Of a DNA stretch of 64,000 bases, positions 3,831-64,000 are shown in pieces. How positions within the stretch are numbered: the first letter of the stretch is position 1; every line of letters begins with the position of its first letter. The translations under genes and the position numbers were made by a program. Source of the stretch: Brevibacterium sp. p3-SID960 (lineage in GTDB: Bacteria > Actinomycetota > Actinomycetes > Actinomycetales > Brevibacteriaceae); assembly GCF_025144725.1 (NCBI RefSeq), contig NZ_JALXKS010000008.1:1-64000 (forward strand). Reading direction: 5' to 3'. A model generated the notes under the pieces. That model was not told the origin of the DNA and searched no databases. It saw nothing but the letters and a program-made list of their open reading frames with translations.

Positions 3831-3847
3831 CACCGCCTCGGGAACGG
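3831..3847 (+). repeat. Dispersed word, exact copy
   Basis: CACCGCCTCGGGAACGG in the short gap between the amine oxidase and glmS. This is the consensus form of a word that recurs about 20 times in the window. Confidence 0.8.
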
Positions 3848-3926
3848 GAGCGACCAGCCGACGCCGAGTCGCAGATGTTACGCGCCGGGCGGGCGCGAAC
3901 GTGCAGGTGCTGGGCGTCGGCGGGTT

Positions 3927-3932
3927 TAGACT
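3927..3932 (+). promoter_or_regulatory. -10 box of leaderless glmS
   Basis: TAGACT, preceded by TT, ends 7 bp before the glmS ATG. Transcription would begin at or next to the A of the start codon, and there is no Shine-Dalgarno sequence. Confidence 0.55.
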
Positions 3933-3939
3933 GAAATCT

Positions 3940-5811: not shown

Positions 5812-5826
5812 GACAGGCAGACGGGT

Positions 5827-6357: not shown

Positions 6358-6375
6358 GCTGACGCGGCCGACCGG

Positions 6376-8367
6376 TCAGAACGGAGGAGCGTCGTCGCCA
6401 GACGAGTCCCCGGGGTTCTTCCATGGGAGGCCGTCGTCCTGCGTTCCCTCTCCCTGCGTTTCCTCCCGCAGTGCTTCCCGCCGGGCGGCATCGCTGAGTT
6501 CGTCGGCCCGTGTCAGGCCCAGATAGTGCTGGGCCAGCTCGGCGGCCGTATCGAGATACATCGCATCAGGCTCGGCTGGTGAGGTCACTGTCTGCGCGCA
6601 GGCTGCCCGCTCGGCTTCGGCCGGTGGGCTGGTCGCCCAGTGCGAACCGGGTGCGGCGTCGTCGCGCAGCAGAGCGCGCATCGGTTCAGGCAGTGCCTCG
6701 CCGATGATCCGCGCCTGCCGTTGCTCCACCGGATTGCGGGGCTTACGTGTATGCCCGGTGAGCCCGAACATCATCGTCCACCGCAGCACACCATCCTCGC
6801 CCTTGAACACACGCAGATGTCCGCGCGTCTTGAGGTCGTGATGGGTTTTGCACAGCGGCTGCATGTTGCCCGCCTGCGTCAGCCCGCCAGCAGACGGGTC
6901 ACGGTGGTTGAACGACACGATGTGATCGGTCTCCGAGGTCGAGGCCCGACGGCTGCAGCCCGGTGCCGTGCACCACGCCCATGCCGCCTGCACTGTTGTG
7001 CGCACCGCCCGCGGCACCGTGTACTTCTTGGCCGGCTCGTCGAGGACCTCACCGGTCAGCGGGTCCGTCAGCAGCCGGTAAAGCGTCGAGGACTCGGCAG
7101 CGAACTGCCGGGCCGTCAGCGCTGGAATCGGATGCTGCCCCTCCACGGTGCCCGGCAGATCAGCAGTGCCCAGCAGCGTGATCACCGGCACCGTGACATT
7201 CACCGTCGCCTGCCGGCGCAGCCACTCAGCACTCGTCGGGCACGACACCTCGACGAGCTGCTCAGCAGCTTCCCCGCCAGAGACACGAACACGGGTGGAC
7301 GGTGCCATGCCAGTGAGCATGTCGAACATCACCTGCGGGATCGTGCGCTCCTCCAACAGCTGGGTCGCCGCGTCGCGCGCACCACCCGACTGCATGCCGG
7401 CAGCTCCAGTCCGCTGCTCATCAGAGCTCAGCCCGAAGGCATCGAGCTGCTGCCGCACAACCCCGCGAGCGCAGGCGAGCGTGCGCTTGTACAGCGCCGT
7501 CAGCGGAGCCAGCGGCCCGCGCAGCGTCAGCGTCGCGCTGCCATCAGGCAGTGCTTCGAAGAGCACCGCCCGCTGCTCGTGGATCTGCTCAGCGGCCTCG
7601 TCCTCTGGCACGATCGTCGCCAGTTCCATATCGACATGCCGGCGCACCTCGCGCATCGGCCGGTGCGCCGGGATCGCAGTGACCGACGCGTCCATCTCCT
7701 CCAGCTGTGCCAGCGTGAGGTCGCTGCTCTTGCGCGCGGTGTAGTCCAGCCGCTCGAAGGGCACCTGTCCGCGCAGGACGAGTGCCGTCAGCCGCGGCAG
7801 GCCGACGAAGGCTACGAGCGCCCGCGAGACCAGGGTGTAGGCCTTCTGCAGCGAGCAGTCGTGCATCGTCGAGACCACGACGCGGATGGCGTTCTCAGCC
7901 CGGTCGTTGGCGCAGAACCACGACATGAGCGAGCCGCTGAAACGCACCTGCCGCAGGCCCGCGGCGACATCCCCAGGGGAGGGGAGCACCGCCTCGGGCG
8001 CGGTCACCCCGGGCATCTCGGGTACGAACCCGACCATGCGCGCGGGATCGAACGCCGGTGCCCGCGCCACCGCCTCGGGGCCGGAACCCACCGCGGGGCC
8101 GGAACCCATCGCGGAGCCGGTGTCCACCACCCAGGGGCCGGGTGGCCCGCCTGTATCCGGTGGATCGGCCGGCCGATGCTGCAGCGGCAATGCTGCGAGC
8201 CGGTCGTCGATGTTGAGCACCGCGAAGGCCAGCTGTGCCAGCCCGTACATCTGCACGGCCTCATAGCGGCCCAGCTGCCGGTTGTAGGCGGCCACATGAT
8301 CGGCCAGCAGCGACACAGGGCTCGCCGGCACCTCGACGGCCAGCTGCGGGTCGTCATCGGGGTCCAT
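6376..8367 (-). CDS. DUF222/HNH endonuclease domain protein (13E12 type)
   Basis: A 663-residue protein of the actinobacterial 13E12-repeat family: a long DUF222 region and a C-terminal HNH nuclease motif. The HNH part reads CTAPGCSRRAS, then TDHIVSFNHRD, then LCKTHHDLKTRG, with the zinc Cys residues and catalytic His present. The ATG at 8367 is preceded by AGGAGG at 8 bp, so I reject an upstream start at 8448. Function is unknown; family members are thought to be nucleases that occur in many copies per genome. It lies antisense inside an otherwise forward cell-wall gene block, which suggests insertion. Two copies of the dispersed word fall in the low-complexity region near its N-terminus. 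A second member is at 54509-56143. Confidence 0.85.
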   Translation of the reverse strand: MDPDDDPQLAVEVPASPVSLLADHVAAYNRQLGRYEAVQMYGLAQLAFAVLNIDDRLAALPLQHRPADPPDTGGPPGPWVVDTGSAMGSGPAVGSGPEAVARAPAFDPARMVGFVPEMPGVTAPEAVLPSPGDVAAGLRQVRFSGSLMSWFCANDRAENAIRVVVSTMHDCSLQKAYTLVSRALVAFVGLPRLTALVLRGQVPFERLDYTARKSSDLTLAQLEEMDASVTAIPAHRPMREVRRHVDMELATIVPEDEAAEQIHEQRAVLFEALPDGSATLTLRGPLAPLTALYKRTLACARGVVRQQLDAFGLSSDEQRTGAAGMQSGGARDAATQLLEERTIPQVMFDMLTGMAPSTRVRVSGGEAAEQLVEVSCPTSAEWLRRQATVNVTVPVITLLGTADLPGTVEGQHPIPALTARQFAAESSTLYRLLTDPLTGEVLDEPAKKYTVPRAVRTTVQAAWAWCTAPGCSRRASTSETDHIVSFNHRDPSAGGLTQAGNMQPLCKTHHDLKTRGHLRVFKGEDGVLRWTMMFGLTGHTRKPRNPVEQRQARIIGEALPEPMRALLRDDAAPGSHWATSPPAEAERAACAQTVTSPAEPDAMYLDTAAELAQHYLGLTRADELSDAARREALREETQGEGTQDDGLPWKNPGDSSGDDAPPF
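7987..8084 (+). repeat. Two dispersed-word copies inside the HNH gene
   Basis: CACCGCCTCGGGCGCGG at 7987-8003 and CACCGCCTCGGGGCCGG at 8068-8084. The gene is on the other strand, where both copies read PEAV in the protein (in TAPEAVLPSPG and GPEAVARAP), within a low-complexity segment that also contains the imperfect repeat MGSGPAVGSGPEAV. Confidence 0.7.
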
Positions 8368-8482: not shown

Positions 8483-8488
8483 GGGAGT

Positions 8489-9796: not shown

Positions 9797-11259
9797 GGCT
9801 CGGGTACACCGCTGCCGCCGTCCGTGAGGCCGAGGCACCGCTGCTGGCTGCAGGCCGCGGGGAGGCGCTCATGCGCACCGCCGCTGCTGGGCTCGCTTCC
9901 GTGTGCCGGCGCCTCTTGAGTAAGCGCGGGCAGATCTCCGGCAGCCGCGTCGTCATGCTCGTCGGTGCCGGCAACAACGGTGGAGACGCCCTCTACGCCG
10001 GCGCGAACCTCGCAGGCCGCGGCGCCCACGTCACCGCTGTCGACGTCTTCGGGAAGATGCATGAGGCTGGTGCCGCCGCCTTCACCTCATCCGGTGGGCA
10101 GACCGAGGCCTTCAACGCGGAGAATTCGGCGGAGATCTCCGGCCTGCTGCGCGGAGCCGACCTCGTCATCGACGGAGGGCTCGGCACTGGTGCCAAGCCC
10201 GGCCTGCCCGAAGACCTCGCAGCCCTCATCCGCGGCTGGCAGGGAAGCGCCACCTCCGGCCAGTTCGTCGTCGCCGTCGACGTGCCCACCGGCGTTGATG
10301 CCTCGACCGGGGCCTGCGGGCCCACCCACGTGCGCGCCACCCACACCGTCACCTTCGGTGCTGACAAAGCCGGTCTCCTGCTGCCCGGCGGTGCCGATGC
10401 AGCAGGCGAGGTCACGATGGTCGACATCGGCCTCGACATGTCAGCCCATGTCCCGGCCGTCCACGTGCCCGACGACAGCGATCTCGCCACCTTTTGGCCG
10501 CGCCCGCAGGCAGGCGACCACAAGTACTCCCGCGGCGTCCTCGGGCTCGTCGCCGGCTCCGCCCGCTTCCCGGGTGCCGGTGTGCTCACCGCCTCGGCGG
10601 CGGTCGCCACCGGTGTGGGCATGCTCCGGCTCCTGGCTCCGGCCGAGGTGACCGAGACCGTCCTGCAGACCTACCCGGAGGTCGTTACCGACGCCGGGCG
10701 CGTGCAGGCGTGGGCGATCGGGCCGGGTGCTCCGGACCGGCTGGCGATGCAGCAGGCGATCACCGCCGCGGAATCCCAGCACGTCCCGCTCGTCATCGAC
10801 GCCGGCGGCCTGGCGCTGCTCACCCGGCCGCTGGAGACCAGCTGTATCCTCACCCCGCACGCCGGCGAGCTCTCAGACCTGCTCGCCCGCCTCGGCACCG
10901 GCGCCCCCACCCGGTCCGAGGTCGAAGCCGAACCGGTCACTCACGCCGTGCGCGCCGCCCAAGTGATTGAGGCGATCGTGCTGCTCAAGGGCAACCGGAC
11001 GATCATCGCCCGGCCCGATGGCACCGTCGTCGCGCCAGAACCCGGGCCCGCCACGCTGGCCACCGCCGGCACCGGCGACGTGCTCACCGGTATCCTGGGA
11101 GCGCTGCTGGCCACCACCGCCGGAACCGACATCGATCTGGCCGACCTGGCCGGGCTGGCAGTGCTCATGCACGCGCGCGCAGGCGCGCACGCAACTCACG
11201 CCTCGCACCTGCCGGCCGCCCTCGAAGCCGACGTCCTCGCCGTGCTCGACCAGATCTGA
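9793..11259 (+). CDS. nnr: Bifunctional NAD(P)H-hydrate epimerase/dehydratase
   Basis: Repairs damaged NADHX and NADPHX. The N-terminal epimerase domain (YjeF_N) shows GAGNNGGDALYAGANL and VDVPTGVDASTG. The C-terminal ADP-dependent dehydratase domain (about residues 230-488) shows GSARFPGAGVLTASAAV, DAGGLALL, LTPHAGEL and LATAGTGDVLTGILGALL. Length 488 is normal for the fused enzyme. The start overlaps the upstream stop by 4 nt. The order nnr-alr-tsaE-tsaB-rimI-tsaD is widely conserved in actinobacteria. Confidence 0.95.
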   Translation: MRLGYTAAAVREAEAPLLAAGRGEALMRTAAAGLASVCRRLLSKRGQISGSRVVMLVGAGNNGGDALYAGANLAGRGAHVTAVDVFGKMHEAGAAAFTSSGGQTEAFNAENSAEISGLLRGADLVIDGGLGTGAKPGLPEDLAALIRGWQGSATSGQFVVAVDVPTGVDASTGACGPTHVRATHTVTFGADKAGLLLPGGADAAGEVTMVDIGLDMSAHVPAVHVPDDSDLATFWPRPQAGDHKYSRGVLGLVAGSARFPGAGVLTASAAVATGVGMLRLLAPAEVTETVLQTYPEVVTDAGRVQAWAIGPGAPDRLAMQQAITAAESQHVPLVIDAGGLALLTRPLETSCILTPHAGELSDLLARLGTGAPTRSEVEAEPVTHAVRAAQVIEAIVLLKGNRTIIARPDGTVVAPEPGPATLATAGTGDVLTGILGALLATTAGTDIDLADLAGLAVLMHARAGAHATHASHLPAALEADVLAVLDQI

Positions 11260-11346: not shown

Positions 11347-12732
11347 ATGGCAGCAGCGGCGCAGGCAGCGACCGGATCGGTCGTGAGCGCCCGCATCGAC
11401 ACCGCGGCACTCATCGACAACGCCCGCACCGTTGCCGCGCGCGTCGCTCCCGCCCAGCTCATGGCCGTCGTCAAGGCCGACGCCTACGGCCACTCCACCG
11501 ACATCGTCGCCCCTGCGCTGTATGCCGCCGGACTGCGGGACTTCGCCGTGGCGACCGTGCCCGAGGCGGTGGCCCTGTCCCAGCTGCTCGGCCCGGATTC
11601 CGGGGCTCGGATCCTGTGCTGGCTCTTCGACCCGGCTGCCGACCTCACTGTTTGCACACGCGCCGGGATCGAATTGGGCATCTCCACCCCCGAAGCCCTC
11701 GAGGCCGCCATCGCCGCAGGCCGGGCGACCGGCCGCTCTCAGGACGTGCATCTCAAACTCGACACGGGGCTGGGCCGCAACGGCCTCTCCCTGTCCCAGC
11801 TCGACACTGTCCTCGAACGACTGCGCGCGCTTGCCGCCGAGTCCAGCATCGCCGCCGGTGCGCAGGCAACGACCGGGACGCCCACCATCGGGACGGCCAC
11901 CGCCGGAACTGCCCGAACCGCCGGGACGGCCGCCACCGGAACTATCGGAACCGCCGGACCGCCCACCTCGGCGCCGGTGCGGGTGACCGGCATCATGACC
12001 CATTTCGCCAACGCCGACATCCCCGGCGATCCGGCGACGGCCGACCAGCTGCACCGCTTCGACAGCCTCTACGGTCGCCTGCAGGCCGAGCTGCCGTCCG
12101 ACCTGCGCGCAGACGACCTCAGAGTGACCTTGGCCAACTCGCCGGCCGCGCTCTCGCTCGACCCGGTGCCCGGCAGCCACGTGCGTGCCGGCGTCATCCT
12201 CTACGGCCTCAGCCCATTCGAGAACAGAACCGCCGCGCAGCTCGGCCTCACCCCGGTCATGACGCTCACCTCCCGCGTCCTCAACGTCAAGGATGTCCCC
12301 GCAGGTCAGGGTGCCTCGTACGGGCTGACGTACCGCGCTGCTCACGACACCCGCTTCGCGCTCGTCGCCGGCGGCTACGGTGACGGGCTGCCGCGCATCG
12401 CCGGCAACCGCGGTGAGGTCACCGTCCGCGGCCGCCGCTACCCGATCGTCGGGCGCATTGCGATGGACCAAATGGTCCTCGACATCGGCCCGGCTGAGAC
12501 CGGTGGCGAGGTGGCGATCGGCGATGAGGTCGTCGTCATCGGCGACGGCACCACCGGCCCGAGCGCCGAGGAATGGGCTGCCTGGTGCGAGACGATCAAC
12601 TACGAGATCGTCACCTGCATCAGCCCCCGCGTCGACCGCATCGCCGTCGGCGCGCCCGGCGAGGCCGCGGCCGGCGAGGCTGCGAACGGAGCACACCCAG
12701 CTGCTGACCACACCCGAGGCGGCGGCCGGTGA
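11347..12732 (+). CDS. alr: Alanine racemase with a Thr/Gly-rich insert
   Basis: Interconverts L- and D-alanine for peptidoglycan, using PLP. Lys43 in AVVKADAYGH is the PLP lysine, and Tyr325 in GASYGLTYR is the second catalytic base. VGRIAMDQMVLDIG is also present. Length 461 is about 80-90 residues above the family norm. Part of the excess is an insert at about residues 168-209 built of TxGTA-like repeats, between the barrel strands leading to VRVTGIMTHFANAD. The rest is an Ala/Gly-rich C-terminal tail. GAAGGAG lies 8 bp upstream of the ATG. It overlaps tsaE by 4 nt. Confidence 0.95.
   Translation: MAAAAQAATGSVVSARIDTAALIDNARTVAARVAPAQLMAVVKADAYGHSTDIVAPALYAAGLRDFAVATVPEAVALSQLLGPDSGARILCWLFDPAADLTVCTRAGIELGISTPEALEAAIAAGRATGRSQDVHLKLDTGLGRNGLSLSQLDTVLERLRALAAESSIAAGAQATTGTPTIGTATAGTARTAGTAATGTIGTAGPPTSAPVRVTGIMTHFANADIPGDPATADQLHRFDSLYGRLQAELPSDLRADDLRVTLANSPAALSLDPVPGSHVRAGVILYGLSPFENRTAAQLGLTPVMTLTSRVLNVKDVPAGQGASYGLTYRAAHDTRFALVAGGYGDGLPRIAGNRGEVTVRGRRYPIVGRIAMDQMVLDIGPAETGGEVAIGDEVVVIGDGTTGPSAEEWAAWCETINYEIVTCISPRVDRIAVGAPGEAAAGEAANGAHPAADHTRGGGR
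11848..11973 (+). repeat. Degenerate ACCGGxACxGCC-type repeat inside alr
   Basis: Codes for about 42 residues of GTATAGTARTAGTAATGT-like sequence inserted in the alanine racemase barrel. Imperfect units of roughly 12 and 24 bp can be seen. Confidence 0.7.
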
Positions 12733-15212: not shown

Positions 15213-16408
15213 GCGCTGCTGATAGCCCGCTCGTCCTCGGCATCGAATCCTCCTGCGACGAGACCGGTGTCGGGATCGTGCGCGGGCGCACCCTGCTGAC
15301 GAACACCGTCGCCTCCTCGATGGACGAGCATGTGCGCTTCGGCGGTGTCGTGCCCGAAGTCGCCTCCCGTGCCCACGTCCACGCCATCGGCCCGACCATC
15401 GACGAAGCCCTCACCGACGCCGGTGTCACCCTCGATGACATCGACGCGATCGCTGTGACCGCAGGCCCCGGGCTCTCCGGAGCGCTCATGGTCGGCGTCG
15501 CCGCCGCCAAAGGCCTGGCCGCGGCCACCGGGCTGCCCCTGTACGGCATCAACCACTTAGCCGCCCACATCGCCGTTGACCTTGTCGCCGACGACCTGCA
15601 GCAGCCAGCCACCGCCTCCGGAACTGCCGCCGCCTCGGAAACGGCGGACAACGGCCAGCCAGCCACCGCCTCGGGCCCGGTGACCCCGTCGATCGCCCTG
15701 CTCGTCTCCGGCGGGCACACCGAGATCCTGCGCATCGGCGACCTCGTCGACGACATCGAACTGCTCGGCGCCACCATCGACGACGCCGCCGGTGAGGCCT
15801 TCGACAAAACCGCCCGGCTGCTGGGCCTGAGCTATCCGGGCGGGCCGAACATCTCGAAAGCCGCCGCCGGCATCCTCGACGGCACCGGCCAGCCGGGTGA
15901 CCCGGCCAGCGTGAAGTTCCCGCGCGGACTCTCCACCGCAAAGGACCTCCGCGACCCTCAGCGCCGCTACTCCTTCTCCTTCTCCGGGCTCAAGACCGCC
16001 GCCCTGCGGTTCGTCACCGCCTACGAGGCCGCACGCGCCGCCGGCAGCCCGGAGACCAGCCGGCAGCTGACCGACCTGCGCTTAGCCGATGTCACCGCAT
16101 CCTTCGAGACAGCCGTCGTCGACGTGCTCGTGACCAAGACGCTGCTCGCGTGTGAGGATTACGGCATCGACCACGTCATGCTCGGCGGGGGAGTGGCCGC
16201 GAACCGACGGCTGCGCAAGACCTTGGCCGAACGCTGCGCTGAGCGCGGCGTCACCCTGCGGATCCCGCCGCTGAAGCTGTGCACCGACAACGGTGCGATG
16301 GTCGCCGCCCTCGGCGCCGAGCTCGTCACCCGCGGACTGCCGCCCTCACCAGAGGACTTCGCGGTGTTCTCATCTCTGGAGGTGCGCGATGTCTACATCC
16401 GGCCCTGA
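15209..16408 (+). CDS. tsaD: tRNA t6A N6-threonylcarbamoyltransferase with an insert
   Basis: Catalytic subunit of t6A synthesis, an ASKHA-fold metalloprotein. [14 protein letters not shown] opens the protein; the metal-binding HxxxH appears as NHLAAHIA near residue 115. [27 protein letters not shown] and [13 protein letters not shown] are all present. Length 399 is about 50 above normal. The excess is an insert at about residues 130-157 that contains [12 protein letters not shown] and [10 protein letters not shown], encoded by three copies of the dispersed word. The last 20 nt overlap the nudix start. Confidence 0.96.
15610..15680 (+). repeat. Three dispersed-word copies inside tsaD
   Basis: Variants at 15610-15626 and 15628-15643 and CACCGCCTCGGGCCCGG at 15664-15680. 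They encode TASG or ASE in a surface insert of TsaD, in the same reading frame used in RsmA and the Opp proteins. Confidence 0.7.
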
Positions 16409-29743: not shown

Positions 29744-29757
29744 GTTCCTTCCCACGC

Positions 29758-29824
29758 CCGAGGCGGTGCTCGCCTGACCGCGTGCGCGCGCCAGCGCACA
29801 CGCTTACGGTGAGCACCGCCTCGG
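29758..29824. repeat. REP-like inverted pair of the dispersed word between bmp and its ATPase
   Basis: Left arm CCGAGGCGGTGCTC (29758-29771) and right arm GAGCACCGCCTCGG (29811-29824) are perfect 14-bp complements. The 39-nt loop contains a smaller GTGCGC/GCGCAC hairpin. It starts 14 bp after the bmp stop and ends 23 bp before the ATPase GTG. The RNA would form a very stable stem. Confidence 0.88.
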
Positions 29825-29847
29825 CTGCGGAATAAAGGAGAGTCCAC

Positions 29848-45607: not shown

Positions 45608-46050
45608 CCGTCGATGTCCTCAACGAGGGCGCGGCCGCTGAGCTGCCAGGTGCCGGTGGGCCCCAGTAGCCCGATGACCGGGACGGGCGTGGTGACGGTG
45701 ACGGTGACGATGTCCTCTCCGCCGTGGGTGCTGTAGTCGACGTCGATGCGCTCGGCGTAGCGGCTGCTGACCGTCTCGCTGATGAGCTGCTGCGTCAGCT
45801 CGGCACCTTCTCGCGGCGCGGCATCAGGCAGGGAGGCGAGCCGGGCCCCGGCGACTGCGGAGTCGATGACGGTGTTGCGCACATGCATCGCCAAGCCCAG
45901 CTGGATCACGGCGAGGAACACCAGGCTCAGCAGGGCAGCGACCATGACGAACTCGGCGACGGCGACACCGGCGTCGCTGCCGAGACCGCGTCTGCGGCGG
46001 CTGCTGCGAGAGACGCCCGGGCGGCTCTCAGCTGTGCGGGTCACGCTCAC
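45604..46050 (-). CDS. TadE-like minor pilin
   Basis: A 148-residue protein: Arg-rich start, then GVAVAEFVMVAALLSLVFLA, the TadE pseudopilin pattern, and a soluble beta-rich domain. The GTG at 46050 is chosen because it overlaps the upstream stop as GTGA; a longer frame extending back to 46320 runs out of frame over the upstream gene and is discarded. Confidence 0.82.
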   Translation of the reverse strand: MSVTRTAESRPGVSRSSRRRRGLGSDAGVAVAEFVMVAALLSLVFLAVIQLGLAMHVRNTVIDSAVAGARLASLPDAAPREGAELTQQLISETVSSRYAERIDVDYSTHGGEDIVTVTVTTPVPVIGLLGPTGTWQLSGRALVEDIDG

Positions 46051-46343
46051 CCGCCTGAACCGCGCACCTTCGACATCGAGTCTTCGAACATCGACGTGAA
46101 GGCATCCCCGGCCAGCGCCCACAGGGCCACAACGAGTCCGGCGGTCATCATCGTGATGAGCACCCAGCCGGGCACGTCGCCACGATCCGGGCTGGTCTCC
46201 CGGCGGCCGCGCTCGGCGCGCCCGGGCAGGTAGGCGAAGGGGTCGATCACGAAGGCGACGACAAGCAGGTGCCAGCAGGTCCACCGGCCGGTGGGCGCTT
46301 GGCCAGGTGGGGGTGTGCACGGGGTGCGAGTCGGGGTGGTCAT
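46047..46343 (-). CDS. Small membrane protein at the Flp pilin position
   Basis: A 98-residue protein with a polar N-terminal 60 residues and one C-terminal hydrophobic helix (GWVLITMMTAGLVVALWALA) followed by a short tail. Its position between tadC and the TadE genes, and its size, suggest the Flp-type major pilin, but the usual Glu-Tyr motif is not evident. AAAGGAGA lies 6 bp before the ATG, the strongest ribosome-binding site of the operon, which fits a high-copy subunit. Confidence 0.6.
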   Translation of the reverse strand: MTTPTRTPCTPPPGQAPTGRWTCWHLLVVAFVIDPFAYLPGRAERGRRETSPDRGDVPGWVLITMMTAGLVVALWALAGDAFTSMFEDSMSKVRGSGG

Positions 46344-46440
46344 GGTTTCTCCTTTCGGTGTGCCGCCGGCAGGCGGCCGGTATCAGATGCCGCGGCAGTC
46401 GCTCGGCCAGGACGGCAGGTCAGGCGGCCAGGACAGCAGG

Positions 46441-47418
46441 TCAGTAGGACAGGTTCAACACCGCCAATGAGGGGAAGATCGCGAACAGGACGGTGATGGG
46501 CAGCACGAAGACGACGACCGGAACGAGCATTCCGACTTCCTTCTTGCCGCTGAGCTCCATGAGCTGACGGCGGCCCTCGTCGCGGACGTCCGTGGCCTGG
46601 GCGCGCAGCACCTCGGACAGCGGAGTGCCGCGGGCGATCGCGACGGCCATCCCGTCGACGAACTGCGCGATCGACTGGATGCCGGTGCGCTTGCCGAGGT
46701 GGTCGAGCGCCTCAACGAGAGGGGTGCCGGTGCGGGCCTCAGCGAGCGTGTAGGCGAGCTCCCGGCTCAGTTCGCCCTCCGTTGCGCGGCAGGCGCGGTC
46801 GAGCGCATCGACTGTCCCCTCACCTGCGGTGATGGACAGGGCCAGCAGTTCGGCGATCGTCGGGAACTCCGCCAGAATGCGTGTCTCACGCTGCCGCACT
46901 CGGTATGAGAGCCACCAGTCGTTGAACAGATGCCCGGCGACGGCCCCGAAGATGAGGCAGCCGAGGATGATGAATGGGTGCGGCCCCCGGCTGACCGACA
47001 CGAACGCCGCCAGCAGCGCACCGGCGCCGAACCCGCCGGTGATGAGCAGCAGCTGCTGCGCCCGGAACCGTTCGATCGTCTCCCCGGGCCCGAGGCGGTC
47101 GAGACGTGCGGTGATCCCGGCGTTGGTCGTCAGGCGGGAGGTCAGCCACGATCCTGCGCGGTTGAGCCAGGAGGTGAGAATCCCGCGCACGCCGGCATCG
47201 GCGGGTTCGGTCTCGGCGAACAGGGCGGCGATCCGCGGCTGATCGCGCAGATATGGGGCGATGCGGTCAGCGAGGGTGATGCGGTTGAAGACCGGCCAGC
47301 TGGTGACGAAGAACGCGAGCGATAGCCCGAGCACCAGCCCGGTAGTGATGATGACAGCAGGATGGGTCGGGTCGATGCGCGCCGATCCGAACGGGCCGAA
47401 GGGAATCTCAAAGGGCAT
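46441..47418 (-). CDS. tadC: Tad pilus inner-membrane protein TadC
   Basis: A 325-residue type II secretion F-domain protein. One N-terminal helix, a long cytoplasmic part, then the T2SF domain with AEFPTIAELLALSITAGEG, LVEALDHLGKRTGIQSIAQF and two C-terminal helices. It works with TadB as platform for the TadA motor. Begins 12 bp after tadB. Confidence 0.88.
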   Translation of the reverse strand: MPFEIPFGPFGSARIDPTHPAVIITTGLVLGLSLAFFVTSWPVFNRITLADRIAPYLRDQPRIAALFAETEPADAGVRGILTSWLNRAGSWLTSRLTTNAGITARLDRLGPGETIERFRAQQLLLITGGFGAGALLAAFVSVSRGPHPFIILGCLIFGAVAGHLFNDWWLSYRVRQRETRILAEFPTIAELLALSITAGEGTVDALDRACRATEGELSRELAYTLAEARTGTPLVEALDHLGKRTGIQSIAQFVDGMAVAIARGTPLSEVLRAQATDVRDEGRRQLMELSGKKEVGMLVPVVVFVLPITVLFAIFPSLAVLNLSY

Positions 47419-47430
47419 GGCGCACCGTCC

Positions 47431-48303
47431 TCATCGCAGCACTCGCGGTTCAGAGGGCAGCCGGCCGATGCGCTTCATGGCGCTGTAGGCGACCAGTGAG
47501 ACTGCGAGGCCGGCGAGCAGCAGCAGCGAGCCTGTAGCCGAGTTGTATGCCTGGGCAGTCTCCGGCCGGGTGGCCAGCAGGGCGAGCACCACCCAGGGGG
47601 CGGCGACCGCGAGCCGGGCGCCGGTGACCGTCCAGCTCTGCCGTGCCTGCATCTCCGAACGGGTGCGGGAGTCATCGCGCAGGAACTGGCTGAGCGTCTT
47701 GAGCATCGTGCCCAGATCGGTGCCGCCGACTTCGCGGGTGACGGCCAGTGCGGCGACGATCCGGTCGGCGACCGGGTCGGCGCAGGCGGACTTGAAGGCG
47801 GTGAGCGCCATGGAGAACGATCCGGTCGCCCGGTACTCCTCAGCGAAGACCGCGAACAGCGGACGCAGCGGCTCGGGCCCGCGCTGGGCGAGACCGCCGA
47901 GCGCCTCGGGCAGGGCGAGACCGGCACGCACGCCGGAGTTGAGGTGGTCGATCGCCTCCGGCCACAGCGCCCGGCGGGCGACAGTCCGCGAGCGCGCCCG
48001 GTGCCGCACCGCGTAGGACGGCACGAGTGCAGCGAAGAAGGCGAAACAACCGGCGATCGCGATGGCGTTCGTGACCGCATAGGCGAAGAGGAACACGATC
48101 CCGGCGGCGCCCAGCCCGCCGAGCACGAGGTGGTAGGGGCGAAGCCGGGGCAGGCCAGCGGTGGTGAGCATGTCCTGGGTGTCACGGATGAAGCGCGGCG
48201 GCTCGGTCTGCCGTGGCGGGGACTCCCAGCACGACCACCAGATGAGGAACAGTCCGATCCCGATACCCAGCCCGCACAGCGCTCCACTCAGCGACGTCGT
48301 CAT
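47431..48303 (-). CDS. tadB: Tad pilus inner-membrane protein TadB
   Basis: A 290-residue T2SF-domain membrane protein, second gene of the operon, 6 bp after tadA. N-terminal helix (SGALCGLGIGIGLFLIWWS), two helices near residues 60-100, the F domain (HLNSGVRAGLALPEALGGLA, GGTDLGTMLKTLSQFLRDD) and C-terminal helices. Confidence 0.88.
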   Translation of the reverse strand: MTTSLSGALCGLGIGIGLFLIWWSCWESPPRQTEPPRFIRDTQDMLTTAGLPRLRPYHLVLGGLGAAGIVFLFAYAVTNAIAIAGCFAFFAALVPSYAVRHRARSRTVARRALWPEAIDHLNSGVRAGLALPEALGGLAQRGPEPLRPLFAVFAEEYRATGSFSMALTAFKSACADPVADRIVAALAVTREVGGTDLGTMLKTLSQFLRDDSRTRSEMQARQSWTVTGARLAVAAPWVVLALLATRPETAQAYNSATGSLLLLAGLAVSLVAYSAMKRIGRLPSEPRVLR

Positions 48304-48309
48304 TGTCGA

Positions 48310-49536
48310 TCACGCCGCTTCGAGCACGGTGTGGATGTCGTGACCGAGCTGCGCGAACCGCTCGCCGAGGTGGGTGTAGCCGCGCCCGCGCACCAGCCGC
48401 CGGTCCGCGGTGGAGGTGAAGACGGTTTCGAGTTCGATGACCTCACCTTCGATGCCGCCGGGAACTGCGACGATCTCCTCGACGCGGCGCTGTCCGCTGC
48501 GGTCGAGGCGCATGTGGACGACGAGGTCGACGCAGCTGGCCACGGTCGGGGTGACGAACGTCGAGCCGATGTTCGGGCCCGCCAGAAGCGGCAGCGTGCA
48601 CAGCTTCGTCACTGCGGCCCGCGCGGAGTTCGCGTGGATCGAGCCCATCGACGGCAACCCTGAGTTCATCGCCACGAGCAGGTCGAAGCTCTCGGCCTCG
48701 CGCACCTCGCCGACGATGACGCGATCAGGCCGCATCCGCAGCGCCTCCTTGACAAGGGTGCGCAGCGTCACCTCGCCGGTGCCCTCCAGGGACGCCTGCC
48801 GGCACTGCATCGGCACCCAGTCCCGGGAGGGAACTGAGAGTTCGAAGACCTCCTCGCACGTCACCACCCGGTCGCGGACCGGGATCGCGCCGGTGAGCGC
48901 GTTGAGCATCGTCGTCTTGCCCGCCTGGGTGGCACCGGAGACCAGCACATTGGCGCCGGCGGCCACGGCAATGGAGAGGAACTGCGCCGCCGCCGAGGTT
49001 AGGGTCCCGAGCGCGACGAGGTCGCCGAGATTGCGGGTGCGGGTGATGAACTTGCGGATGTTGATCGCCGGATGTTTGCGGGTGATGTCCGGCAGTACGA
49101 CGTGCAGCCGCGAACCGTCGGGCAGCGAGGCGTCGACGAAGGGGCTGGAGAGATCGACCCGCCGACCGGTGGTGCGCAGCATCCGCTCGATGAGTTCGTC
49201 GACATCGGCGGCGCTCAGCACGGTGGTGGTCAGCTCGCTGACGCCGTGCCGGCTCACGAAGATCTCGCTCGGCGAATTCAGCCAGATCTCTTCGACCTCA
49301 GCGTCGTCGAGGTACTGCTGCAACGGCCCGAAGCCCGAGACCTGGTCGAAGATCTCCCGGCAGGTCTGTTCGACGTCGGTAAGCAGAGGAAGGGAGCCTG
49401 CCAGCGTCCGCTCGTCGTAGTCGTGGACGGCCTGCACGACGAGCTCTCGGGTCGGAGCCGGTTCGGTGCGCGGGTCGATGCCGCGTCTGCGGATCTCCTC
49501 GCGCACCTCTGCGGCAATGATCTCAGCTGCGTTCAT
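48310..49536 (-). CDS. tadA: Tad/CpaF secretion ATPase
   Basis: A 408-residue hexameric ATPase driving Flp pilus assembly. N-terminal GFGPLQQYLDDAEVEEIWLN region, then Walker A VSGATQAGKTTMLNAL (near residue 208), the Asp box and Walker B RPDRVIVGEVREAES, and HANSARAAVTKLCTLPLLAG. It heads the operon tadA-tadB-tadC-flp-tadE-tadE-tadG. TadZ-like, prepilin peptidase and secretin genes are not in the window. Confidence 0.93.
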   Translation of the reverse strand: MNAAEIIAAEVREEIRRRGIDPRTEPAPTRELVVQAVHDYDERTLAGSLPLLTDVEQTCREIFDQVSGFGPLQQYLDDAEVEEIWLNSPSEIFVSRHGVSELTTTVLSAADVDELIERMLRTTGRRVDLSSPFVDASLPDGSRLHVVLPDITRKHPAINIRKFITRTRNLGDLVALGTLTSAAAQFLSIAVAAGANVLVSGATQAGKTTMLNALTGAIPVRDRVVTCEEVFELSVPSRDWVPMQCRQASLEGTGEVTLRTLVKEALRMRPDRVIVGEVREAESFDLLVAMNSGLPSMGSIHANSARAAVTKLCTLPLLAGPNIGSTFVTPTVASCVDLVVHMRLDRSGQRRVEEIVAVPGGIEGEVIELETVFTSTADRRLVRGRGYTHLGERFAQLGHDIHTVLEAA

Positions 49537-56442: not shown

Positions 56443-56459
56443 CACCGCCTCGGGAACGG
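56443..56459 (+). repeat. Dispersed word, exact copy
   Basis: CACCGCCTCGGGAACGG, directly abutting the palindrome upstream of the smpB promoter. Confidence 0.8.
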
Positions 56460-57083: not shown

Positions 57084-57099
57084 CCGTTCCCGAGGCGGG
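57084..57099 (-). repeat. Dispersed word, minus-strand copy
   Basis: Minus-strand CCCGCCTCGGGAACGG, directly adjoining the first DnaA-box-like site. Confidence 0.75.
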
Positions 57100-57413
57100 C
57101 CATCCACAGTGCTTTCGCCCGCGTTTAGCCTGTGGTTGGGTGTGGGTTGCAGGCACATTGTCCACACTGTCTGGGGATATGTGTGGATAACGGTTGAAAT
57201 GCTGTGCATGATCAAGTCCGGACTGATTCCAGGTCAGCGTAGCCCTTCACCGTGCAAGCCGCTGATCAGCGGCGATGCATGATCGCGTGGGCTGTGATAG
57301 TGGCCAGTGCCGAGGTGAGGTGCAGGTGCCGCAAAGACTTGCCCCGCCGGGAATCGGCTGGGTTTCCACAGTTTTCTATGGGGGTTGTGGACAGCCGGCT
57401 GACGTGTGGATAA
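57100..57413. other. Cluster of six DnaA-box-like sites
   Basis: CCATCCACA (57100-57108, +), TTGTCCACA (57158-57166, +), TTATCCACA (57182-57190, -), GTTTCCACA (57362-57370, +, one mismatch), CTGTCCACA (57386-57394, -) and TTATCCACA (57405-57413, -). Two are the perfect E. coli consensus, others fit the high-GC actinobacterial form. dnaA and dnaN are not here, so this is not obviously oriC. Confidence 0.65.
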
Positions 57414-57487
57414 CAGTGTGACCTGCGGTCATCGGCACCGCGAGCAGAGGCGGGAGTCGAACCGGTGCCCTGACTGCCGGTGCCATC

Positions 57488-58113: not shown

Positions 58114-58121
58114 CTCTCGAC

Positions 58122-60276: not shown

Positions 60277-60314
60277 CCAGGTGGCCGGCTGATCCGGTGA
60301 CTGGACACCCCGTG

Positions 60315-60355
60315 CCCGAGGCGGTGGGCTGCACCGGCGTGCGCCCCGCCTCGGG
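60315..60355. repeat. REP-like inverted pair of the dispersed word between binding protein and permease genes
   Basis: CCCGAGGCGG (60315-60324) and CCGCCTCGGG (60346-60355), perfect 10-bp complements; pairing continues as GGGC against GCC with one bulged T. Starts 38 bp after the binding-protein stop. Confidence 0.85.
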
Positions 60356-60432
60356 ACCGGGCTCCGGTCACCATGAGCACCATGACTGCGCTGCGCACGT
60401 GTGCAGCAGCGTGTGGAAGGCAGGAGACTGAC

Positions 60433-61485
60433 GTGTCAGTGAACGCAGAGACCGAGGCAGCCGACCCGCAGTCGGCCGACGGGCGGGAGGACATCGACGC
60501 ACCCCCACCGGGGCAGTCCTTCGGCGGATACCTGCTGCGCAAGGTCGGCGGGGCGCTCATCAGCCTGCTGATGGTCGTGCTGCTGGGCTTCTTCGCCTTC
60601 AGGATCCTGCCCGGCGACCCGGTGCAGAAGATCGCCCGCGAACGCCAGATGAGCCCGGAGCAGATGGAGTTGCTGCGCGCCGAGTACGGCCTCGACAAGC
60701 CGCTGGTTGTGCAGTTCTGGGACTACCTCGTGGGCATCTTCACCGGCAATCTGGGCACCAGCTACGTCTACCGGCAGCCGGTCAGCCAGCTCATCGCCGA
60801 GTACGCCTGGCCGACCCTGCTGCTCACCGGCACGGCGGCGATACTCGCGATCGCCCTCGGCCTGTGGATGGGACAGCTGGCGGCCTGGAAGCGCGGTTCG
60901 CTGTTCGACAAGCTCACCACCTCGACCAGCCTCGTGTTCTGGTCGGTGCCGACCTTCTGGCTGGCGCTGCTGCTGCTCATGATCTTCGCCGGCCGGCTGC
61001 AATGGCTGCCGACCGGCGGAATGGTCTCACCTGGTGTCGAGTCCGGCAGCCTCGAATACGTCGTCGACGTCGCCAAGCATCTGATCCTGCCGGTCATCAC
61101 GATGACCGCTGTCGTCTACGCCCAGTACCTCATGGTCATGCGCGCCTCGCTGCTCGGCGAGATGAGCGCCGACTACCTCACGACCGCCCGCGCCAAGGGC
61201 CTGCGCGAGGATGATGTGCGGCTCAAACATGCGGTGCCCAATGCGCTGCTACCGACGGTCACACTCGTGTTCATGCACATCGGCGGGCTCATCACCGGTG
61301 CGGTCACCGTCGAGACGGTGTTCTCGTGGCCAGGGCTGGGGAAGCTGACCTATGAGGCGATCTCGGGTCCGGACCTGCCGCTGCTGCAGGGCACCTTCGT
61401 CGTGTTCTCCTCGGCGATCATCATCATGAATCTGCTCGCCGACCTCATCTACCGGCAGCTTGACCCGCGTGTCAGGAGGGCATGA
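60433..61485 (+). CDS. Peptide ABC transporter permease (OppB/DppB-like)
   Basis: A 350-residue permease with six hydrophobic segments. YLLRKVGGALISLLMVVLLG is TM1; FRILPGDPVQKIARERQMSP, LRAEYGLDKPLVVQFWDYL and GNLGTSYVYRQPV follow; the EAA loop is YLTTARAKGLREDDVRLKHA with PNALLPTVT. The GTG at 60433 is chosen because AGGAG is 6 bp upstream; an ATG at 60373 would add 20 residues. First of the membrane components. Confidence 0.92.
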   Translation: MSVNAETEAADPQSADGREDIDAPPPGQSFGGYLLRKVGGALISLLMVVLLGFFAFRILPGDPVQKIARERQMSPEQMELLRAEYGLDKPLVVQFWDYLVGIFTGNLGTSYVYRQPVSQLIAEYAWPTLLLTGTAAILAIALGLWMGQLAAWKRGSLFDKLTTSTSLVFWSVPTFWLALLLLMIFAGRLQWLPTGGMVSPGVESGSLEYVVDVAKHLILPVITMTAVVYAQYLMVMRASLLGEMSADYLTTARAKGLREDDVRLKHAVPNALLPTVTLVFMHIGGLITGAVTVETVFSWPGLGKLTYEAISGPDLPLLQGTFVVFSSAIIIMNLLADLIYRQLDPRVRRA

Positions 61486-61486
61486 G

Positions 61487-62482
61487 ATGGCACATTCCAG
61501 CACCAGCCAGCCCAGCACCAGCCAGCCCGGCGCTAGTAAGACCAGCCAGCCAGGCACCAGCAGGACCGGCCCAGCCACCGCCTCGGGTCCGGCCAGCCCG
61601 CGGGCACTGGCCTGGAACCGCCGCCTGGCCGCCGCACAGAAGAACTGGAAGGTCTTCTTGGAGGACCGCGCCGGAGTCGCCGGCGGGATCGTCCTCATCC
61701 TCGTCGTCCTCGTCGCCGCATTCGCCCCGCTCATCGCCGACCGGTCCATGCTCGACGTCACCCAGAACCTCGACCAGCCGCGCTACGCCCCGCCCTCGGC
61801 CGAGCACCCGCTGGGCACCGACAACTACGGCCGCGAACTGTGGGCCCGCCTCGTGTGGGGCGCCCGGGTCTCCCTCATCGTCGGCCTGGCTGCGACTGCG
61901 ATGTCGATGGTCATCGGCACCATCATGGGCATGGCCGCCGGCCATTTCTCAGGGCTGTTCGGCGGGCTCATCATGCGCATCATCGACTTCTTCCTGGTGC
62001 TGCCCTCCCTGCTGCTGGCGATCGTGCTGTCCTCAGTGCTCGAACGCGGCGTCCTCACGATTGTCATCGCGATCGGCATCACCTCCTGGGCCGGCACCGC
62101 GCGCATCGTGCGGGCCCAGACGCTGTCGGCTGAGTCCCGGCTCTACATCGAACGGGCCAAAGTGCTCGGTGCCGGGCACTGGCACATCATCCGCACCCAC
62201 CTGCTGCCGGCCGTCATGCCGCTCGTGCTCGCCAACACCACCCTGACCGTCGGCTCGGCGATCATCGCCGAATCGACGCTGGCCTTCTTGGGCCTGGGCG
62301 ACACCACGCAGCAGTCGTGGGGCACGATCCTGAAGAACGCGATGGACGTCTCGGCCGCGACCTCGGGCTACTGGTGGTACATCCTCACCCCCGGGCTCGC
62401 CATCGTCGCGGTGGTCCTGGCCTTCACCCTGGTGGGCCGGGCCATCGAAGCCATCGCCAACCCGACTCTGAGGAGCCGCTGA
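61487..62482 (+). CDS. Peptide ABC transporter permease (OppC/DppC-like)
   Basis: A 331-residue second permease. The first 40 residues are a Thr/Ser/Gln/Pro-rich tail (STSQPSTSQPG) ending in PATASGPAS, encoded by a dispersed word at 61576-61592. Then GVAGGIVLILVVLVAAFAPL (TM1), HPLGTDNYGRELWARLVWGA, SRLYIERAKVLGAGHWHIIR (EAA loop) and ALAFLGLGDTTQQSWG-like sequence. ATG 61487 has AGGAGG 7 bp upstream; an earlier in-frame start is rejected. Its stop overlaps the next start by 1 nt. Confidence 0.92.
   Translation: MAHSSTSQPSTSQPGASKTSQPGTSRTGPATASGPASPRALAWNRRLAAAQKNWKVFLEDRAGVAGGIVLILVVLVAAFAPLIADRSMLDVTQNLDQPRYAPPSAEHPLGTDNYGRELWARLVWGARVSLIVGLAATAMSMVIGTIMGMAAGHFSGLFGGLIMRIIDFFLVLPSLLLAIVLSSVLERGVLTIVIAIGITSWAGTARIVRAQTLSAESRLYIERAKVLGAGHWHIIRTHLLPAVMPLVLANTTLTVGSAIIAESTLAFLGLGDTTQQSWGTILKNAMDVSAATSGYWWYILTPGLAIVAVVLAFTLVGRAIEAIANPTLRSR
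61576..61592 (+). repeat. Dispersed word inside oppC
   Basis: CACCGCCTCGGGTCCGG, coding TASGP in the N-terminal cytoplasmic tail. Confidence 0.7.
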
Positions 62483-64000
62483 TGAGCAGAACCGACCCAG
62501 CCACCGCCTCGGGAGCCGAGCCGGCCGGCAGCGACCTTGTCTTCGACGACGTCTCGATCCTTTACTCCTCGCGCACCTCCCGCGGCGACATCGCCGCGGT
62601 CAAGAACGTCACCCTCGAACTGCCTGCCGGTGGCACCCTCGGCATCGCTGGCGAATCCGGTTCCGGGAAATCGACGCTCATCCTTTCGGCGCTGCGGCTG
62701 CTGCCGCACAATGCGGCGCTGACCGGTCAGGTGCGCTTAGGCGGCACCGACATCGCGGAGCTGAACTTCGGGCAGATGCGCGCGGTGCGCTGGTCGCAGG
62801 CCGCGATCATCTTCCAGGGCGCCCTGCACTCGCTCAACCCGGTCCGCCCGGTCGGCAAGCAGATCCTCGAAGCACTTGAACTCCACGTCAAGGACGACTG
62901 GCGCACCGATGCCGCCCGCAGCACGCGCATGCACGAGCTGCTCGGCCACGTCGACCTCGGACCCGAGATCGCGAAATCGTATCCGCATGAGCTCTCCGGC
63001 GGGCAGAAGCAGCGGGTCATGATCGCGATGGCGCTGGCCTGCGACCCGGACATCATCATCGCCGACGAGCCGACCACCGCCCTCGACGTCATCGTCCAGG
63101 AACAGATCCTCACCCGCCTGCGCGCACTCGTCGAAGCCCGCGGCATCTCGCTGCTCATTATCTCCCACGACCTGTCCGTCCTCGCCGCCGCCTGCGACCG
63201 GCTGGCGATCATGCGCGATGGCGAGATCGTCGAACTCGGCCCGTCTGAACAGGTGTGCAACGACCCTAAGGAGGAGTACACCCGGCAGCTGGCCGACGCG
63301 TTCCCCACCATCGGCGACCCGGACTCCCGGCTCAACCCGATGACCCGCAACCCCGCCCGCATCACCACCGACACCCCACACGAGATGACCGACGAGGTGA
63401 TGCTCGCCGCCGAGAACCTCAACGTCACCTTCTCCGCCCGCGGGCGGACCGTGCGTGCTGTGCGCAACGTCGACCTCACCCTGCACCGCTCGGAGATCCT
63501 CGCCGTCGTCGGCCAGTCCGGTTCGGGCAAGACGACCCTGGCTCGCGCACTGCTCGGTCTGCAGCCACCGGATCGCGGCTCGACGCTCACCTTCCGCGGC
63601 AAGCCGCTGCCCACCTCGGCGAAGGGTCTGCGCGCGTTCCGCCGGGACGTGCAGATGATCCTGCAGGACCCGTCAGGATCACTCAACCCGGCATTGTCGG
63701 CGTACGAATCGGTCGCTGAGGGTCTGCGGGTGCAGAAGTTCACCGGCGATGAGCGCGAGCGCGTGCGCGAGAGCCTCGAATCGACTGAGCTCATCCCCGG
63801 TGAGGACTTCTTCGAACCGATTCCGCAGGAGCTCTCCGGCGGGCAGCGTCAGCGCGTCGTCATCGCCAGCGCGCTCGCCCTCAACCCCGACATCCTCATC
63901 GCCGATGAACCGGTCGCCTCACTCGATGCCTCCGTGCGCGGGGAGATCCTCTCGCTCATCCTCGCGCTGAAGAAGAACCTCGGGCTCACCGCGCTCGTCA
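62482..64000 (+). CDS. Fused peptide ABC transporter ATPase (OppD-OppF), partial
   Basis: 506 codons visible; the gene continues beyond the window. Two complete ABC domains in one chain energise the importer. NBD1: GIAGESGSGKSTLILSAL (near residue 55), FQGALHSLNPVRPVG, ELSGGQKQRVMIAMAL, IIADEPTTALDV. NBD2: VVGQSGSGKTTLARALLG (near residue 345), LQDPSGSLNPALSAYE, ELSGGQRQRVVIASAL, LIADEPVASLDASVR. The N-terminal PATASGAEPA is encoded by a dispersed word at 62502-62518. It starts in the oppC stop (1-nt overlap). Confidence 0.94.
   Translation, partial: MSRTDPATASGAEPAGSDLVFDDVSILYSSRTSRGDIAAVKNVTLELPAGGTLGIAGESGSGKSTLILSALRLLPHNAALTGQVRLGGTDIAELNFGQMRAVRWSQAAIIFQGALHSLNPVRPVGKQILEALELHVKDDWRTDAARSTRMHELLGHVDLGPEIAKSYPHELSGGQKQRVMIAMALACDPDIIIADEPTTALDVIVQEQILTRLRALVEARGISLLIISHDLSVLAAACDRLAIMRDGEIVELGPSEQVCNDPKEEYTRQLADAFPTIGDPDSRLNPMTRNPARITTDTPHEMTDEVMLAAENLNVTFSARGRTVRAVRNVDLTLHRSEILAVVGQSGSGKTTLARALLGLQPPDRGSTLTFRGKPLPTSAKGLRAFRRDVQMILQDPSGSLNPALSAYESVAEGLRVQKFTGDERERVRESLESTELIPGEDFFEPIPQELSGGQRQRVVIASALALNPDILIADEPVASLDASVRGEILSLILALKKNLGLTALV
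62502..62518 (+). repeat. Dispersed word at the start of the fused ATPase gene
   Basis: CACCGCCTCGGGAGCCG, coding TASGA at residues 8-12, before the first ABC domain. Confidence 0.65.

Follow-up and report, generated by a model that had tools for sequence, protein, structure and literature searches.

To our knowledge, the Neisseriaceae and the Pasteurellaceae, both Gram-negative, are the only families in which DNA uptake words are known. The DUS of Neisseriaceae is repeated hundreds to thousands of times, on either strand and both within genes and in spacers; it is clade-specific, common to sister species, and forms some inverted pairs in spacers. The USS of Pasteurellaceae has mismatch variants and no overall orientation bias and comprises a core plus a weaker flank, and a low density of uptake words is expected in recently acquired DNA. 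Among other abundant elements, REP sequences are palindromes lying outside genes and associated with Y1 transposases, and Chi and KOPS are genome-wide asymmetric words that are shorter than the word described below and polar along the replichore. The accessible part of PMC1939737 describes the spacing of USS as even and places about 65% of the H. influenzae USS in reading frames; it also gives a gradual distribution of mismatch load as the molecular-drive criterion for uptake sequences. The USS receptor is only predicted according to the accessible part of PMC12616744, and HIP1, a very frequent short word of one cyanobacterial lineage, is described in the accessible part of PMC4390886 as a palindromic 8-mer discussed together with DNA methyltransferases. 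Among the matches listed, the titles and abstract openings of the open-licence literature searched contained no case of a Gram-positive uptake word.

Here we describe a split 17-bp word in a 64-kb stretch of Brevibacterium DNA (the window) and in two sister species. The word shares the above features of the DUS and differs from it in its Gram-positive host, in the presence of Tad instead of type IVa pili, in its longer split form, in its tandem arrays mostly of 21 bp, in an uptake role that is as yet proposed, and in its lower copy number (~640 near-exact copies in 3.2 Mb versus 2245–5918 in several Neisseriaceae dialects). It resembles the USS in its mismatch variants, balanced orientation, and core with a weaker flank, and differs in sequence, phylum, G+C richness, and random spacing. 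HIP1 is likewise very frequent in one lineage, whereas the Brevibacterium word is split and asymmetric. REP/BIME elements are also dispersed and sometimes form inverted pairs, but the copies here are mostly genic. Compared with the polar Chi and KOPS, the word shows strands without clear polarity over two colinear stretches of 400 kb, but uneven strands in one other region.

Consensus and copies in the window

The first-pass annotation had reported a 17-bp word dispersed about 20 times in the window. Every listed place was recovered (at most 6 bases off) within 3 mismatches of the 17-mer, which has 28 matches in the window versus 0.71 in shuffles (largest shuffle, 3). Seven of the 28 were absent from the earlier list, at 9750(−), 10587, 11555(−), 22714(−), 34455, 39926(−), and 47084(−). 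The 9-mer core CCGCCTCGG is present in 36 copies versus 3.4. A better consensus is CACCGCCTCGGGNNCGG (the NN form), which is matched by 20 window copies at ≤1 mismatch. The word is laid out as a core CCGCCTCGGG-NN-CGG with a two-letter spacer, a sharp right edge and weaker letters on the left; this left flank, approximately A-S-S-Y-R-R-C, is seen only in spacer copies. Read directly, the letters are not palindromic. The core had been described as constant, but one core letter is altered in each of the copies at 15610, 24183, and 24267. The repeated word observed earlier is real, and its scale is much larger than first noted.

In spacers of the window, exact words are located at 3831..3847 (+) and 56443..56459 (+), and a word with 2 mismatches at 57084..57100 (−). 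Two inverted pairs also lie in spacers. The pair at 29752..29830 (29752–29768 minus, 29814–29830 plus) gives a strong hairpin when folded as RNA, and the pair at 60310..60360 (60310–60326 minus, 60344–60360 plus), in the spacer that separates the genes of a solute-binding protein and a permease, also gives an RNA hairpin. The occurrence of the word both in spacers and in frame in proteins, as claimed before, was seen in the window and in the sister genomes. The in-frame peptide had been given as TASG or TASE. This agrees with the sense copies, which read TASG or TAS, but antisense copies read PEAV: two in gene 6376–8367 (7987..8003 and 8068..8084, both +) and one in gene 11383–12732 (11555..11571, −), each with 0 mismatches to the NN form. 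Copies with 1 mismatch to the NN form are found at 10587..10603 (+) in gene 9793–11259 (TAS), at 22714..22730 (−) in sense in gene 22007–23239 (TASG), at 39926..39942 (−) in gene 39637–40596, at 47084..47100 (−) in a T2SSF gene of the Tad operon, and at 62502..62518 (+) at the N-terminus of a double ABC ATPase (TASG). The copy at 61576..61592 (+) in an OppC-like permease gene (TASG) has 0 mismatches to this form.

Two genes carry several words. Three words (15610, 15628, and 15664) occupy 15610..15680 (+) of TsaD, approximately residues 134–157; in 53 of 57 Brevibacterium genomes, the match to TsaD ends at this stretch. Near the C-terminal end of RsmA, an array of five words with 21-bp spacing lies at 24183..24283 (+), and units of this array are absent from the alignments of both sister species.

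Abundance across genomes

The window is 91–92% identical to both B. luteolum and the sister species G001. Genome-wide counts refer to these two sister species, G001 and B. luteolum (G019), as the genome of the window is known here by its 64 kb. Abundance was counted with a fixed pattern allowing mismatches; an iterated position-weight matrix was dropped after it drifted into codon-context patterns. At ≤1 mismatch, G001 has 643 matches to CACCGCCTCGGGNNCGG and G019 has 551, versus 0–58 in 57 other genomes. Comparison with relatives had been set beforehand as a check, and the word proved abundant in the two sister species (261 and 223 exact copies), versus 0–5 exact copies in 55 other Brevibacterium and in the remaining 394 of 396 genomes sampled across the order. 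The closest non-carriers have 74–75% TsaD identity. Among the genomes searched, the word is confined to one clade, the B. luteolum group.

The Markov comparison proposed earlier also left the reading standing. In 400 kb, 34 exact copies were seen versus 0.2 predicted by an order-5 Markov model, and the observed-to-predicted ratios for 0–4 mismatches were 170, 34, 7.3, 2.0, and 1.4. The excess is clear at 0–2 mismatches; beyond 2 it is no more than in the G+C-richer non-carrier G064, which equals or exceeds G001 in 3- and 4-mismatch words. Three non-carriers were searched for over-represented words of their own. In 200 kb of G064, GGGCGCCTCGGC is in mild excess (14 versus 0.76), with 11 of the 14 in genes; as these mostly encode AEAP or GASA stretches, GGGCGCCTCGGC was taken as a codon-repeat effect and rejected as a dialect of the word. 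A clustered TGCATTAAAGCG-type repeat was present in 264 kb of G070, and nothing comparable was found in 80 kb of G010.

Placement of the word

Frame and spacer counts rest on a simple gene caller, not on curated annotation. By these counts, the word is about four times denser in spacers (0.54–0.60 per kb) than in genes (0.135–0.163 per kb), with approximately two thirds of the copies in genes (47/75 and 58/85 in the two 400-kb stretches). Most genic copies lie in two frames that give the unrelated peptides TASG and PEAV, both of which put G or C at every third codon position. There is no clear preference for either end of genes.

The strand-bias check revealed no bias over whole genomes (323/320 in G001 and 270/281 in G019, with contigs in arbitrary orientation), and the counts were 42/33 and 47/38 in the two colinear stretches and 16/14 in contig C18 of G019. 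One region is uneven (18/8 in contig C1 of G001 and 14/6 in the window). Spacing is random (CV 1.03 and 0.99), no regional clustering was found in the two 400-kb stretches, and the commonest close spacing is 21 bp in direct orientation. Some inverted pairs occur in spacers, and only these could act as transcription terminators; since most copies are single or direct, termination was rejected as a general function.

Constraint at the DNA level and turnover

Between the sister species, counting each shared site once per direction, the fixed letters of the word diverge at 88/2220 positions (4.0%), the N letters at 60/296 (20.3%), and the flanks at 589/5684 (10.4%). At non-redundant spacer sites, the values are 30/450 (6.7%) for fixed letters and 17/60 for N letters. 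Fixed letters in spacers thus lie only slightly under the 8.3% average for spacers, and the N letters account for the contrast seen in spacers. At third codon positions, 13 of 236 fixed letters changed versus 31.8 expected, while the N at position 12 changed in 14 of 59 cases versus 12.5 expected. Codon choice was also biased: with orthologues counted twice, TAS is encoded by the word codons in 63/129 cases (0.49; expected 0.12) and PEAV in 20/38 (0.53; expected 0.018), approximately 4-fold and 30-fold over codon use. In the non-carrier G064, the word codons were used for 4/21 TAS and 0/4 PEAV. The lower divergence of fixed letters relative to N letters and flanks, together with the few third-position changes, indicates that the DNA itself is constrained; the word is kept as DNA, not as protein.

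Of 163 aligned copies, 15 are gapped. Tandem arrays account for 12 of these and one-base indels for the other 3; isolated copies showed no insertion of a unit. Isolated copies turn over by point mutation, and tandem arrays gain or lose units.

Accessory DNA and competence genes

A 42-kb prophage of G001 contains 0 words at ≤1 mismatch versus 8.9 from the core density. Accessory DNA of G001 has 0.96 words per 10 kb versus 2.11 in the core, a depletion mostly from the prophage. In B. luteolum, the accessory fraction (defined against G001) shows no such depletion, with 17 words in ~84 kb (2.03 versus 2.15 per 10 kb in the core). The ancestry of the three species is mosaic (chi-square 1349, 108 df), a pattern that a different route of exchange could also have produced.

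ComEC is present in 57/57 genomes, with a ComEA-like gene adjoining it in G001, and DprA in 5/5 genomes searched. In the search for a candidate receptor, the number of TadE-like genes did not separate carriers from non-carriers in 13 genomes (2 matches each in G001 and G019, 1–5 in the 11 others). Since Brevibacterium non-carriers have ComEC, DprA, and TadE-like genes just as carriers do, these genes leave the restriction of the word to one clade unexplained. The Tad/Flp operon at 44685..49536 (−) comprises, by Pfam, TadE/G-like, TadE, two T2SSF, and T2SSE genes and two small genes without a Pfam match, of which the 67-aa one is guessed to be the pilin. The first-pass annotation had linked this operon with transformation in Micrococcus; the operon is indeed in the window, but its host is Brevibacterium. 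We regard it as candidate uptake machinery.

Discussion

Because it is preserved as DNA and not as protein, the word resembles the 'self' label by which some other bacteria select the loose DNA they import. We propose that the B. luteolum group carries it as a sequence-specific recognition site that spread through molecular drive; most likely it serves as a DNA uptake sequence, and the comparisons above give this proposal about an even chance. The uptake-sequence analogy made at first pass fits most of the properties tested, although uptake itself, with an uptake receptor as the reader of the word and biased uptake as the drive, is what we infer. The receptor would sit on the cell surface and prefer word-bearing DNA; it could plausibly be a ComEA-side protein or, in the Tad/Flp pilus, a minor pilin. 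Recombination of imported fragments with the chromosome would turn near-matches into matches again and again, so that copies would build up to hundreds wherever proteins and spacers tolerate them. Only tentatively, at slightly under an even chance, do we suggest an actinobacterial (Gram-positive) uptake sequence in which self-specific transformation evolved independently, with a Tad/Flp or ComEA-side receptor and ~640 words seeding 21-bp arrays and new protein tails.

The constraint on DNA would also be expected if the word were bound inside the cell by a clade-specific protein that organises or repairs the chromosome, with selection for binding maintaining the hundreds of sites, including those in arrays of 21 bp (two turns). 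The protein-like footprint with its two-letter spacer and sharp right edge and the common 21-bp direct spacing agree with such a protein, but the random spacing, the lack of regional clustering in the two 400-kb stretches, and the word-free prophage do not, and we consider it unlikely, if a serious alternative. A Chi-type recombination or repair signal spreading by gene conversion is improbable. Active recombination is evident from the mosaicism, near-exact copies drop gradually with mismatches, and strands are uneven in one region (18/8 and 14/6); against this, the larger colinear stretches (42/33 and 47/38) and G019 C18 (16/14) lack clear polarity, and known Chi sites are shorter.

Only slim odds can be given to a tie with DNA methylation or restriction like that discussed for HIP1. 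One short word is over-represented genome-wide at the DNA level, and it contains CTCGGG, one form of CYCGRG, which we take to be the AvaI site, but it is long and asymmetric with a free two-letter spacer, unlike the palindromic 8-mer described in the accessible part of PMC4390886. A mobile repeat of the REP/BIME or palindromic coding type is very improbable: the analogy drawn at first pass had dispersal on both strands and some inverted spacer pairs in its favour, and fails on the lack of an insertion footprint at isolated copies (the 15 gapped of 163 being array units and one-base indels), on the two thirds of genic copies, on the absence of a palindrome, and on the absence of Y1 (RAYT-type) transposases from 13 Brevibacterium genomes (0/13, with 5/14 control genomes positive). 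An origin of the word as a side effect of composition, codon use, or peptide repeats is regarded as refuted. The G/C third positions of the two main frames are favoured by codon use, and G064 has its mildly frequent GGGCGCCTCGGC in mostly AEAP/GASA stretches (14 versus 0.76), but the exact word exceeds the Markov expectation (34 versus 0.2), one DNA word underlies two unrelated peptides at ~4-fold and ~30-fold over codon use, and spacers are richest in it.

The tail of RsmA and an inserted stretch of TsaD are examples of protein sequence shaped by constraint at the DNA level. Even if uptake is not its function, a 17-bp site maintained in hundreds of positions, with nearest non-carriers that lack it, is a clean system for finding its reader. 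If the uptake reading is true, the word would be a third, independent origin of uptake words, in a Gram-positive with Tad pili. Its restriction to one small clade of the genus, the other 55 species searched being without it, would raise the question of what makes uptake self-specific, and would let one ask whether selection or molecular drive built the word and how receptor and word co-evolve.

Abundance and distribution of the word

The word is genome-wide, clade-specific and constrained at the DNA level. It was located at every position named in the first-pass annotation; the window contains 28 matches with ≤3 mismatches (0.71 in dinucleotide shuffles) and 36 copies of the core 9-mer (3.4 expected). 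Alignment of the copies showed that the word ends sharply after CGG, leaves positions 12 and 13 (zero-based) free and has a weak flank on its left. The flank of 51 spacer copies, not all independent because G001/window orthologues were kept, is approximately A-S-S-Y-R-R-C, and T is absent from its positions −6 and −3. The word is not a palindrome.

In the sister genome G001, the original 17-mer with ≤2 mismatches gave 225 + 235 matches, and the reversed pattern 1 + 4. The refined word, CACCGCCTCGGGNNCGG, was counted at ≤1 mismatch or exactly. The count of one-mismatch variants in relatives, proposed in the first-pass annotation, revealed an excess confined to G001 (643) and G019 (taken to be B. 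luteolum CCUG 46604; 551), versus 0–58 across the remaining 57 genomes (59 were searched). Exact matches numbered 261 and 223, respectively; each of the 55 further Brevibacterium genomes (57 searched) had 0–5, as did the remaining 394 of 396 genomes sampled evenly across the order. The Markov comparison proposed alongside also bore out the excess: observed and order-5 expected counts in 400 kb of G001 were 34 and 0.2 (exact), 41 and 1.2 (one mismatch), 83 and 11.4 (two), 207 and 104.6 (three), and 894 and 648.8 (four), and none of 200 letter-shuffled words exceeded one exact match there. When scaled to 400 kb, the counts for G064, a non-carrier richer in G+C, were 2, 2, 34, 244, and 1332 at 0–4 mismatches; since this genome equals or exceeds G001 at 3–4 mismatches, the carrier-specific excess is limited to 0–2 mismatches.

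The window comes from a Brevibacterium. The best segment of its TsaD shares 92% identity with the protein of B. luteolum CCUG 46604, the nearest named genome, and the window, G001, and G019 share about 91–92% pairwise identity in their aligning parts. Contigs C11 of G001 and C1 of G019 are colinear across 317 kb with 93.2% identity. The window also carries a tmRNA gene (57740–58114) with the tag AKSNDRTEFALAA.

Stretches L170, L172, L186, and L187 of the nearest non-carrier genome, G070, contain clustered TGCATTAAAGCG / GCGTGAATCTGC repeats, often 30–230 bp apart. GGGCGCCTCGGC is mildly frequent in G064 (L188–L197; 14 in 200 kb, 0.76 expected), has GCCTCGG in common with the word and mainly encodes AEAP/GASA.

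Placement and coding frames

Genes and spacers were assigned with a simple purpose-written gene-calling script. As first described, the word occurs both in spacers (28 of 75 copies in G001 and 27 of 85 in G019, in a 400-kb stretch of each) and within genes, at densities per kb of 0.54 and 0.60 in spacers versus 0.135 and 0.163 in genes. Regarding the strand bias that the first-pass annotation raised, copies are balanced genome-wide (323/320 in G001 and 270/281 in G019, with arbitrary contig orientation) but not in G001 C1 (18/8) or the window (14/6); the 400-kb stretches gave 42/33 and 47/38, and G019 C18 gave 16/14. Distances between copy clusters are consistent with a random process (CV 1.03 and 0.99). 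Among direct close pairs, 21 bp is the commonest spacing in genes and spacers, accompanied by 18, 24, and others. This is the length of the word with the four closest letters on its left, and equally that of two DNA turns, and it may reflect either. Inverted pairs are present in spacers, and those at window 29752/29814 and 60310/60344 fold strongly.

Two frames hold 41 of 47 (G001) and 56 of 58 (G019) in-gene copies, a preference explained by both placing G or C at each third position. The sense frame (C/ACC GCC TCG GGN NCG/G) yields TASG, as previously read, but is not the sole one: the antisense frame (CC/GNN CCC GAG GCG GTG) yields PEAV, so that one DNA word encodes unrelated peptides. Counting orthologues once in each of the two genomes, word codons spell 63 of the 129 TAS, where a share of 0.12 is expected, and 20 of the 38 PEAV, where 0.018 is expected; in G064 they spell 4 of 21 TAS and 0 of 4 PEAV. 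TsaD (window 15209–16408) holds a word-bearing stretch at about residues 130–155 in this clade, where the TsaD alignments break off in 53 of the 57 Brevibacterium genomes.

Constraint and turnover of copies

Divergence at word sites was counted in both directions between the sisters, plus the window versus both. Changes affected 88 of 2220 fixed letters, 60 of 296 N letters, and 589 of 5684 flanking letters. Among the 450 fixed letters at spacer sites counted without redundancy, 30 had changed, compared with 17 of the 60 N letters (P = 3e-6), although the 6.7% for fixed letters is only slightly under the spacer average of 8.3%. At third codon positions, 13 of 236 fixed letters (3, 6, 9, and 15) had changed versus a codon-matched expectation of 31.8, and 14 of 59 at N letter 12 versus 12.5. 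The deficit at fixed letters indicates that in genes the DNA word is constrained beyond the peptide.

Isolated copies are gained and lost through point mutation, which counts against the mobile element considered in the first-pass annotation. Gaps affected 15 of the 163 aligned copies, of which 12 belong to tandem arrays and three have a one-base indel. Random 17-mers are gapped at a rate of 2.5%; the arrays are thus unstable.

Foreign DNA, gene exchange and uptake machinery

The largest G019-absent block in the compared stretch is a 42-kb G001 prophage (C11:184525–226711; L040–L042), for which the colinear part of B. luteolum CCUG 46604 shows no equivalent. The seven genes scanned gave matches to terminase, portal, head protease, head protein, tape measure, minor tail, and integrase families. 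The prophage contains no word at ≤1 mismatch, where core density would give 8.9, and two at ≤2. In the G001 stretch, accessory DNA as a whole contains eight words (0.96 per 10 kb versus 2.11 in the core); against this depletion, G019 accessory DNA is undepleted (17 words, 2.03 per 10 kb versus 2.15 in the core).

The three species are mosaic. Proportions of sites shared by window+G001, window+G019, and G001+G019 shift strongly over 55 one-kb steps (chi-square 1349, 108 df, inflated by linkage and local rate differences), and the closest pair switches in long runs along the window, a sign of recombination between sister species. In window 1–55000 compared with G001 C1 and G019 C18, the closest pair is window+G019 at 25–30 kb, mostly window+G001 at 33–50 kb, and G001+G019 around 12–15 and 22–25 kb.

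ComEC was found in 57 of 57 Brevibacterium genomes and DprA in all five searched. The neighbours of the G001 ComEC gene include a DNA polymerase III delta gene and a ComEA-like gene that encodes SLBB and helix-hairpin-helix domains. The Tad pilus operon is indeed within the window. Transformation of Micrococcus luteus needs Tad genes, and the authors consider the same likely in other Actinobacteria (extract of PMC4322843). Species without the word also have ComEC, DprA, and TadE-like genes; the machinery thus permits uptake and leaves the word unexplained. Adjoining the Tad operon is a 1326-aa FtsK/EssC-like protein (window 40572–44552, minus strand) that shares only 32–33% identity with its counterpart in the nearest non-carriers. 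Its N-terminus weakly matches Yop-YscD_cpl, an FHA-like family.

Comparison with known uptake sequences

As extracted from PMC1939737, Haemophilus and Neisseria uptake sequences are not palindromic, include about 10% inverted repeats, lie within reading frames in 65% of cases for H. influenzae and 35% for N. gonorrhoeae, and show non-coding excess, unbiased orientation, and a graded mismatch distribution interpreted as molecular drive; even spacing is cited there. Neisseriaceae have clade-specific DUS dialects, and five genomes of the family are without obvious DUS (extract of PMC3630211). A minor pilin receptor was predicted for Pasteurellaceae in 2025 (extract of PMC12616744). Among the matches listed in open-licence literature, neither a Gram-positive uptake word nor a mention of this word for B. 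luteolum appeared. The Brevibacterium word shares most of the listed traits, but is randomly spaced and less numerous. Its mismatch gradient stands out from that of non-carrier G064 only up to two mismatches, and accessory DNA is depleted of the word in G001 but not in G019. The main rival, an intracellular binding site, seems rather unlikely. That the word is a DNA uptake sequence is our inference, at about even odds.
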